Of a DNA stretch of 64,000 nucleotides, positions 57,305-60,496 are shown piece by piece. Below the pieces are notes generated by a model that saw only the letters and a list, made by a program, of their open reading frames with translations, ran no database searches and was not told the origin of the DNA. The first letter of the stretch is position 1. Each line of letters opens with the position of its first letter. The DNA is taken from positions 806,001-870,000 of the forward strand of contig NZ_CP144374.1 of assembly GCF_040451425.1 (NCBI RefSeq), written 5' to 3'. The translations under genes were made by a program, and so were the position numbers. This DNA is from Thermodesulfovibrio sp. 3462-1. Its GTDB lineage: Bacteria > Nitrospirota > Thermodesulfovibrionia > Thermodesulfovibrionales > Thermodesulfovibrionaceae.

Positions 57305-58168
57305 CTAAAGCTTTATCAATACAGCCATTGCAGTAAATATGAATACGGTTACACTTATATATCCATTCATATTAAAGAAAGCAATATTAAGCTTTGAAAG
57401 GTCATGGGGTTTTACAAGTCTGTGTTCATTTATGAATAAATAGGCAACCACTGCCATTCCAAGCCAGTAAAACATGTTTAACTTGAAAATAAAACCTGTT
57501 AAAACAAGAAAGCTCCATGCAATAAAATGAAAAAGCCTTGCAAGGTATATTGCTTTTTTTACTCCAAAGACTTTTGGAATAGAATAGATGCCGTATTTTT
57601 TATCAAAATCCACATCCCACATTGCATAAAGAGTATCAAAGCCAGCAAGCCAGAAAACAACTGTCAAAACCATTGGAATTATCTCCCAGTTAAAACTTCC
57701 CCTAACAGCAATCCATGCTCCAAGTGGTGCAAGGGCAAGAGCTAATCCAAGCACAAAATGGCATGCCCATGTAAACCTCTTTGTATATGAATATATAAAA
57801 AGTATAAAAATAGCCAAAGGAGAAAGTTTAAAACAAAGGGGATTTAACATCCATGCTGAATAAACAAATATTATGAGGCAAAGCACAGTGAACAATGCTG
57901 CTTCCCATAGTTTGATTTTTCCTGTGGGAATCTCTCTCTGAGCAGTTCTGGGATTAAGAGCATCTATTTTCCTGTCAATTATTCTGTTAAATCCAAAAGC
58001 ACTGGCTCGTGCAGTAACCATTGCAACAGTAATCCAGAGTATCTTTTCAACCTGAGGAATTCCTCCAGCTGAAAGCAATGCTCCTGCAAAAGCAAAGGGA
58101 AGGGCAAAAACACTGTGTTCAATTTTAATCATTCTAAGATAAAGAACAGCCTTATTCAATATGGACAT
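57305..58168 (-). CDS. UbiA family prenyltransferase (UbiA/MqnP-like)
   Basis: 287 residues, eight or nine membrane helices, with the two Asp-rich motifs NRIIDRKIDALNPRT (about 61-75) and YAMWDVDFDKKYGI (about 180-193). The motifs HSVFALPFAFAGAL and TAQREIPTGKI fit 4-hydroxybenzoate polyprenyltransferase and the homologous MqnP of the futalosine menaquinone route; an anaerobe would need the latter. No ribosome site; extended -10 TGTTATAAT 5 bases before the ATG. Confidence 0.9.
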   Translation of the reverse strand: MSILNKAVLYLRMIKIEHSVFALPFAFAGALLSAGGIPQVEKILWITVAMVTARASAFGFNRIIDRKIDALNPRTAQREIPTGKIKLWEAALFTVLCLIIFVYSAWMLNPLCFKLSPLAIFILFIYSYTKRFTWACHFVLGLALALAPLGAWIAVRGSFNWEIIPMVLTVVFWLAGFDTLYAMWDVDFDKKYGIYSIPKVFGVKKAIYLARLFHFIAWSFLVLTGFIFKLNMFYWLGMAVVAYLFINEHRLVKPHDLSKLNIAFFNMNGYISVTVFIFTAMAVLIKL

Positions 58169-58218: not shown

Positions 58219-58314
58219 CTGGAGAGGGATGGTGGGAATTGAACCCACTGGAGGAAATTATCCTCCATCACTGGTTTTGCAGACCAGGAGGGACACCAGT
58301 CCCACACCCCTCCA
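58219..58314 (-). tRNA. tRNA(Sec)-like tRNA with GCA (Cys) anticodon
   Basis: About 96 nt on the minus strand. D arm GGGAC-TGGT-GTCCC (58303-58290), a 5-bp stem with only a 4-base loop as in tRNA(Sec). Anticodon arm CTGGT-CTGCAAA-ACCAG, anticodon GCA at 58280-58278. Long variable arm TGGAGG-ATAATTT-CCTCCA (58267-58249). T arm GTGGG-TTCAATT-CCCAC with a normal T loop (58248-58232). The acceptor stem GGAGGGG/CCCTCTCC needs a G-U pair or a bulged U, and extra bases follow the T stem. Taking the outer U-A pair, the discriminator would be G. CCA is not encoded. A standard tRNA(Cys) has no long variable arm; this looks like SelC with a Cys anticodon. Confidence 0.8.
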
Positions 58315-58320
58315 TAAAAA

Positions 58321-58326
58321 ATTTTA
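58321..58326 (-). promoter_or_regulatory. -10 box just upstream of the SelC-like tRNA
   Basis: TAAAAT on the minus strand, 6 bases before the first tRNA base (58314), so the transcript would begin at or within a base of the mature 5' end. Confidence 0.4.
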
Positions 58327-58363
58327 AATAAATATTTCCGAAAAGTAAAATAGATTTTTCCTA

Positions 58364-60496
58364 TTAAAACCACATTAATTTATCAAAATCTGGTGGGGGA
58401 ACATGAATTTTTATAAAGCCAACAATTGGGGCACGATCGATTAAATAACTATTTTTCAAAATTTCTATAAAAATACAAATGTTTTCTTCTTGTTTTATTT
58501 CTATAACATTAAATGGCAATTCAATTTCTAATATTTCATCAAAAGCTACACTGTCTATTTCATCCTTTTTTATCCATGTTTCATTTTCTTGAATAAAAAT
58601 TTTAGCTAATTGATTGACCATTGTCTCATAAATTATTTTTATTCTTTTTGGTTCAATGATCTGAATTTGTATTGTCATGTCTGTATAGTCTTTTATTGAA
58701 AATTTTGGATCCAACCTGAGAAAAAGACTCTGTCTATTGAATCCATAATAAAAATATGAAAAAAGACTTTCTGATTTGTGCATACTTCCACCGATTCTTT
58801 GAAGATTGAATCTTCCCGCTTCAAGCCATTCAAAATATCCTGTTACTTTTCCATCAATTTTTGGGTATATAAAACCTTTTGGCTCAACTTCTGGTTTAAT
58901 TTCTCGTATTTTCTTGCTGATTGGAACATAGAGAAATGCTGGTGGCTCTTTTCCAGTTTTCAGATACACACTTATTAGATTATGTCTGTAGATTTCATCA
59001 AAAACATCCTTTGTTTCTGTATAGTGTTCATCTCCATACCACCAGTTCCAGTCACTTCCTTCAGAGATATATATTTGTTCCCATGCTTCAGAGAGATTTT
59101 TATCTGGATTTTCTTTTTGGAAAGAAACCAAATCCTTTCTTACTTTATAAAGGTAATCCCAGGCGAGATTGTCTTCTTCATGCCCAATCCATATTGAAAA
59201 GTTAGCTCCAATCCATGAACCTGGAAAGATTTTCTTTAATTTTTTTGTCACGGGATTTTCTTGAATATACTCTGAAAATGTTACGGTTTTTATATCTTTG
59301 CTTTTTTGCAGACTTTCATACAATTTTTTAAGAAATTCTTCTCCATCATTTTCATAATACTCCCATGCATTTTCTCCATCAAGAATAACAGAAACTACTC
59401 CAGAGTTTGTTGAATTACGAATTCTTTTTAAAAAATCATTTACTGCTTTTTGAGGTTCCCAGTTTGAATAGACAAATCCTATCAAATCTGAAAGTACCCT
59501 ATCTCTGAAAAAAATTTTTACTTCCTCAAACTCATAGGGTTGATATAAAATTGAGGGATTTATCAATTTATCGCCAGTTCTTAAATTTTCATTTATTGAT
59601 TTAGCCAGAATTTCTTCATCTGTTGCTGTCCATTTAATTCCTGCCTTTGAAATTAGTCTTATGATTTCCTCACTTACAGCGCCTTCAGATGGCCACATTC
59701 CCTGAGGTTTAAAACCAAAGAGTTCTTCAAAATAAACAACAGCTTTATTTATTTGGGCTTCTGCGTCTTCTGGGGCTTGAAAATTGTATTGAGGAAGTTT
59801 GACCAGAGGCATACATTCCTTTGCTTTATAATTATCATAAATAAGAGGAAGTATAGGATGATAAAAAGGAGAAACTGTCAGCTCAATCTGTCCTGAAAGA
59901 GCCATTTCTTTATAGGCAGGAATAATTTGTTTTATAAGTTCAAGATGTTTTTCAAGAAGAAGTTTTTTTTCTTCTTCTGAGAAATTAGCTCCCTTTTTCT
60001 GTAATTCTTTTAAAAACAAATCTTGCTGTCTATGCAAAGGATCTATCCAGACAAGATTAAAAAGAGTTTGAAGATCTCTAAGTTCCTGAGATGTAAATTT
60101 TTTTGAAAGTTTTAATGGATCTCCATAAATTTTTCCTCTTTTTTCAAGTAATTCTTTGTATCTTGGAAAGGGCTCAACCATTGTTTTCCAGTTTGCGAGA
60201 AAAAAGTTTTCAATAATAAAGGCTTTTTGTTCTTCATTAAGTTCTTCTGCAGGAATAAGCGAGTATTCAAAAAAAATATCAGTAATTCCTGCTTCATACT
60301 CTTTAAGTTGCTTTAAAAGAGAAGGAACAAGATTAAAAGATACTTTCACCTGAGGAAAATTTTTTAAAATAAGAAGCATATCAAGATAGTCTTTTGTTGC
60401 ATGAAGCCTTACCCATGGAAGCATAAATTTATTTTTCAGTGTATCATGGTAGTAGGGTTGATGCATATGCCATAGAATTGCTAAACTAATGCTCAT
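58364..60496 (-). CDS. Glycoside hydrolase family 57 protein
   Basis: 710 residues. GH57 catalytic barrel: LAILWHMHQPYYHD at the N-terminus, the FKPQGMWPSEGAVSEE segment near residue 260 with the likely nucleophile Glu, then VSVILDGENAWEYYENDG and SDWNWWYGDEHYTE, as in GH57 amylase/glucanotransferase relatives; a C-terminal beta domain follows (about 560-710). Probably acts on alpha-1,4-glucans such as glycogen. It overlaps the ftsB stop by 4 bp. Exact specificity cannot be read by eye. Confidence 0.88.
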   Translation of the reverse strand: MSISLAILWHMHQPYYHDTLKNKFMLPWVRLHATKDYLDMLLILKNFPQVKVSFNLVPSLLKQLKEYEAGITDIFFEYSLIPAEELNEEQKAFIIENFFLANWKTMVEPFPRYKELLEKRGKIYGDPLKLSKKFTSQELRDLQTLFNLVWIDPLHRQQDLFLKELQKKGANFSEEEKKLLLEKHLELIKQIIPAYKEMALSGQIELTVSPFYHPILPLIYDNYKAKECMPLVKLPQYNFQAPEDAEAQINKAVVYFEELFGFKPQGMWPSEGAVSEEIIRLISKAGIKWTATDEEILAKSINENLRTGDKLINPSILYQPYEFEEVKIFFRDRVLSDLIGFVYSNWEPQKAVNDFLKRIRNSTNSGVVSVILDGENAWEYYENDGEEFLKKLYESLQKSKDIKTVTFSEYIQENPVTKKLKKIFPGSWIGANFSIWIGHEEDNLAWDYLYKVRKDLVSFQKENPDKNLSEAWEQIYISEGSDWNWWYGDEHYTETKDVFDEIYRHNLISVYLKTGKEPPAFLYVPISKKIREIKPEVEPKGFIYPKIDGKVTGYFEWLEAGRFNLQRIGGSMHKSESLFSYFYYGFNRQSLFLRLDPKFSIKDYTDMTIQIQIIEPKRIKIIYETMVNQLAKIFIQENETWIKKDEIDSVAFDEILEIELPFNVIEIKQEENICIFIEILKNSYLIDRAPIVGFIKIHVPPPDFDKLMWF

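Follow-up and report, generated by a model that had tools for sequence, protein, structure and literature searches.

A tRNA-Cys with the body of a tRNA-Sec, designated selC*, was reportedly described by Mukai et al. in NAR in 2017 and by Vargas-Rodriguez et al. in RNA Biol in 2018, and the original paper is said to have named it tRNA-ReC and to have proposed it as a safeguard for selenoprotein production. SelC-like tRNA-Cys with a GCA anticodon and U73 are a published type that counts Nitrospirae among its hosts (PMC7609411). The characterized relative, the tRNA-Cys(GCA) of Desulfotomaculum nigrificans, has a tRNA-Sec-like structure, is reported to be charged by CysRS, decodes the Sec codon UGA with cysteine, and is delivered by SelB with no interaction with EF-Tu (PMC11415595). 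Two other kinds of tRNA are similar in build: the tRNA-Sec with a sense anticodon from Aeromonas salmonicida, a SelC-like tRNA with a Cys anticodon by which Sec is delivered at UGC codons (Mukai et al. 2016, as reviewed in PMC11415595), and the allo-tRNAs, which have a long variable arm and resemble tRNA-Sec (PMC7609411).

The window analyzed here is a stretch of 64,000 nucleotides (positions 806001-870000) of the complete, single-contig genome of Thermodesulfovibrio sp. 3462-1 (1,818,996 bases). It contains, on the minus strand, a complete SelC-like tRNA-Cys(GCA) of the selC*/tRNA-ReC type, 93 nt long including an encoded CCA (Table 1). The type is already described in the literature, and the initial annotation of this DNA rightly pointed to published minor Cys tRNAs. 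Like selC*/tRNA-ReC, the window tRNA combines a tRNA-Sec-like body and an 8-bp acceptor with GCA and U73, it occurs in a genome that also has a canonical tRNA-Sec (a normal selC) and SelB, and some of its homologues are followed by selB, the pairs of selB genes in one family paralleling the reported selB* (PMC7609411). It differs in the acceptor-T branch, as the consensus described for selC*/tRNA-ReC is a modified 8/4 branch with a bulged A51a, while the window copy has a plain 8/5 branch of 13 bp, its T stem (GUGGG/CCCAC, common to the selC of the same genome) having five pairs and no bulge; for this reason we assign it to the type in its broad sense and not in the narrow one. The partner genes of selC*, namely selB* (described in Syntrophobacterales and Desulfobacterales; PMC7609411) and, in Desulfobacterales, a downstream cysS*, also set the systems apart, as neither a second SelB nor a dedicated CysRS was found when both were looked for in this genome. 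With regard to tRNA-Sec, the window tRNA scores above the gathering score of the family model (61.4 vs. 47 bits) but has U73 in place of G73. It is further distinguished from the A. salmonicida tRNA by U73 and by the UCA selC alongside, and from the allo-tRNAs, whose branch spans 12 bp (8/4 or 9/3) and whose identity is that of Ser (PMC7609411), by its 13-bp branch and Cys identity.

Structure, conservation and distribution of the tRNA

ARAGORN called tRNA-Cys(GCA) as the sole tRNA of the window, and Infernal matched the same place with the tRNA-Sec model RF01852 (61.4 bits, gathering score 47, E 1.2e-11), while the general tRNA model gave only 30.7 bits. The SelC-like body with a Cys anticodon, as well as the covariance-model check suggested in the initial annotation, are borne out by these results. 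In 5'->3' direction the first half of the tRNA reads GAGGGGUG-U-GGGAC-UGGU-GUCCC-UC-CUGGU-CUGCAAA-ACCAG-UGA, and the second half continues with UGGAGGA-UAAUU-UCCUCCA-GUGGG-UUCAAUU-CCCAC-CAUCCCUC-U-CCA. The initial annotation was right about the 5-bp D stem with its 4-nt loop and about the anticodon and T loops, which are normal, whereas other details had to be revised: the gene is read from the minus strand, there are seven pairs instead of six in the variable arm, and the acceptor, thought to be irregular, is a regular 8-bp stem (GAGGGGUG/CAUCCCUC) with a single G-U, the supposed extra bases beyond the T stem being the eighth acceptor pair, U73 and the encoded CCA.

Table 1. Positions of the tRNA, its parts and its surroundings, counted from the first base of the window
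Feature	Position	Strand	Basis
tRNA-Cys(GCA), complete	58220..58312	-	ARAGORN
tRNA-Sec model match	58224..58312	-	Infernal, RF01852
Acceptor stem 5' strand GAGGGGUG, 8 bp	58305..58312	-	sequence; 8/8 pairs formed in 17/17 sequences
D arm, stem 5 bp GGGAC/GUCCC, loop UGGU 4 nt	58290..58303	-	sequence and alignment
Anticodon GCA	58278..58280	-	ARAGORN; invariant in alignment
Long variable arm, 7 pairs UGGAGGA/UCCUCCA	58249..58267	-	sequence; double-sided changes in 6/6 modelled pairs
T arm, 5 bp GUGGG/CCCAC, without A51a bulge	58232..58248	-	sequence, alignment
Acceptor stem 3' strand CAUCCCUC	58224..58231	-	sequence
Discriminator U73 and encoded CCA	58220..58223	-	no variation among 18 aligned sequences
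Promoter-like TTTACT-17-TAAAAT, end 8 nt upstream of the tRNA	58321..58349	-	consensus scan
Upstream neighbour, glycosyl hydrolase family 57 (GH57) gene	58364..60496	-	Pfam PF03065; context only
Downstream neighbour, UbiA prenyltransferase gene	57305..58168	-	Pfam PF01040; context only

Structure, conservation and identity elements could be established directly. GCA, U73 and CCA were invariant in 18 aligned homologues, and all 20 second-ranking tRNA-Sec matches retrieved from relatives were GCA tRNAs with U73 and CCA. U73 is an identity base for CysRS. In the alignment of 17 homologues 98.4% of the cells were paired, and slid controls (51-65% paired) agreed with the covariation result, in which double-sided changes were counted at 17 of 29 pairs vs. 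8.6 in shuffles (17 was reached in 0 of 500 shuffles), a type of count that is inflated by the relatedness of the sequences, according to the warning of the counting tool. The eighth acceptor pair covaries as well (A-U in 12 sequences, G-C in 5). Because the stems covary and the identity elements are conserved, a chance fold or a decayed tRNA is ruled out. We therefore have here a genuine and conserved tRNA, the second one for cysteine in its genome.

Using a strict pattern, which gives lower bounds, the gene was present in at least 48 of the 149 genomes of the order and at least 6 of the 16 of the genus, where its distribution is patchy. Homologues were also found in a few other phyla, in named records labelled Chloroflexota, Thermoleophilia and Carboxydothermus islandicus, most of these records being metagenome bins. 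One variant of the GCA tRNA is common to another genome of the genus (G008) and the record Thermodesulfovibrio sp. N1. Of 56 T arms examined, 53 were of the plain 8/5 form, and Carboxydothermus islandicus (L116) was alone in having a bulged A. In addition, Carboxydocella thermautotrophica (L154) has a related GCA tRNA with a long variable arm and acceptor pairing over 7 instead of 8 positions. Among viral contigs (L203-L223), 19 of 21 pattern matches were phage tRNA-Cys(GCA) with U73 according to ARAGORN; their bodies, with long variable arms, appeared tRNA-Ser/Leu-like by eye and not SelC-like, i.e., they are class-II-looking Cys tRNAs of another kind.

Selenium genes in the genome and around the homologues

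The tRNA coexists with a selenocysteine system and a UGA-containing selenoprotein gene. A genome search for most of the genes listed in the initial annotation recovered each of those sought: a normal selC (UCA anticodon, G73, CCA), a class-I tRNA-Cys(GCA), selA, and selB. There is one selB and one CysRS (full-length, in an open frame of 496 aa), both away from the tRNA locus. One formate dehydrogenase has an in-frame TGA (motif QARI*HSPTVAALAESFGRGA) followed by a hairpin (-22.9 kcal/mol, z -2.66), and therefore at least one likely Sec codon is available to SelB. A motif search, a limited test, found no counterpart of this site with a Cys codon in the other formate dehydrogenase-like genes. 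Of all other tRNAs in the genome, selC is nearest to the window tRNA (69 identical positions, vs. at most 61 for tRNA-Ser); the window tRNA has the discriminator U73, against G73 in the selC of its own genome and in those of the order. In the order's normal selC genes (GGGGUUC-UGGU-GUCCC type; L001 1497-1594, L049-L077) unpaired bases seem to break up the D stem, which in the GCA tRNA is a perfect one of 5 bp.

Within the genus, the tRNA lies between the GH57 gene and ubiA in three genomes including that of the window, behind the GH57 gene in a fourth, and at other sites in others. The promoter-like element is kept in the four genomes with GH57 upstream, and the scan found 3 such elements vs. 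1.5 in shuffles, which is weak evidence when taken alone. The window copy has no adjoining selenium gene. Outside the genus, a YedF-type cluster stood beside the tRNA in 26 of 62 loci, which are non-independent and include a few duplicates, but span several families and two phyla. By our own estimate, made without matched control loci, the chance of a given single-copy gene lying within 6.5 kb is approximately 0.5% in a 2.5-Mb genome. At other loci the neighbours were LysR_Sec_metab, SelB, SelD, cysteine desulfurase, and Se_S_carrier, or a double-cubane reductase with its activase. Many families have the tRNA in front of yedF or selB, at a distance of a few tens of bases and with the same orientation. 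In one family (f10), four genomes (G054, G063, G094, G127) have two selB genes each, one per pair directly behind the tRNA, and a metagenome bin of the same family (G101) has two SelC-like tRNA-Cys (C62, C142; L114, L111), each followed by its own selB, one of these apparently cut short, and a third selB elsewhere. The association of homologues with selenium genes and extra selB copies is a direct observation. As selB is present in 135 of the 149 genomes of the order, the co-occurrence of tRNA and selB is no test of a SelB link, for which the adjoining selB copies provide a better one. In a bin with an estimated completeness of 100% (G023), selB and a GCA SelC-like tRNA were found, but no UCA selC.

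Probable decoding role and alternative readings

The window tRNA is probably a tRNA-Cys of the selC*/tRNA-ReC type that would be charged by CysRS, carried by SelB, and used to place Cys at UGA Sec codons as a backup during selenium shortage. CysRS would recognize U73 together with the GCA anticodon and load the tRNA with cysteine, so that the charging with Cys considered in the initial annotation is supported by identity elements in the sequence. The 13-bp acceptor-T branch, whose T stem is identical to that of selC in this genome, would make it a cargo of SelB and not of EF-Tu, and SelB would bring it to UGA Sec codons that have a SECIS hairpin after them, of which the formate dehydrogenase provides at least one here. 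Cys would then be inserted instead of Sec, which would be of most use at a low selenium supply. Charging, SelB binding, UGA decoding, and a role in selenium shortage are steps that we infer for the window tRNA. Its likely target is the UGA Sec codon reached via SelB and not a Cys codon, a possibility absent from the initial proposals. GCA does not pair normally with UGA. For this mispairing, the reading rests on the published case of D. nigrificans. The lack of a selenium gene adjoining the window copy, the missing A51a bulge and the patchy distribution in the genus also speak against this reading.

A minor Cys isoacceptor of the ordinary kind, which CysRS charges and EF-Tu carries and which reads UGC and UGU in general translation, would equally have GCA and U73, and its anticodon would pair normally with Cys codons. 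We nevertheless consider this unlikely, as a class-I tRNA-Cys(GCA) is already available in the genome, covariation preserves the 13-bp 8/5 branch, homologues show linkage to selB and selenium genes, and the characterized relative does not interact with EF-Tu (PMC11415595). The position of the tRNA closely upstream of yedF or selB in many families would also suit a regulatory RNA, which could compete for SelB or CysRS, or control the downstream gene through processing from the transcript, and for a tRNA-Sec that lies nested within selB a regulatory effect has been hypothesized (PMC8124441); such a function appears improbable given that the invariant GCA, U73, and CCA speak for a tRNA that is charged and decodes and that the downstream gene varies widely between families (UbiA in the window). 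The initially proposed tRNA-Sec with an altered anticodon, which would receive Ser, undergo conversion by SelA and insert Sec (or Ser) at Cys codons, is improbable in spite of the SelC-like body and the precedent of the A. salmonicida GCA tRNA-Sec, a different tRNA that translates targeted UGC codons (PMC11415595), and is not preferred because the homologues all have U73, against G73 in the selC genes of the order, and a normal UCA selC is present, with the UGA-coded formate dehydrogenase and the lack of a Cys-codon counterpart in the limited motif search also speaking against it.

Significance for Thermodesulfovibrio and its order

Beyond the probable role of a Cys-inserting backup at UGA, a wider and rather tentative reading is that the 8/5 SelC-like tRNA-Cys of Thermodesulfovibrionales and some Chloroflexota may be part of a selenium-responsive programme that switches selenoproteins between Sec and Cys depending on the selenium supply. 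Its genes might include YedF, the Sec-associated LysR, SelD, the Se/S carrier, and, in one family, a dedicated second SelB, which could act as a Cys-specific recoding factor. The type occurs widely across the order, in many cases with linkage to selenium genes. A SelC-like tRNA-Cys is now placed in a complete, small genome that has genes for selenocysteine as well as a formate dehydrogenase with a UGA codon, and Cys-for-Sec recoding, as proposed in the literature, therefore becomes directly testable in Thermodesulfovibrio.
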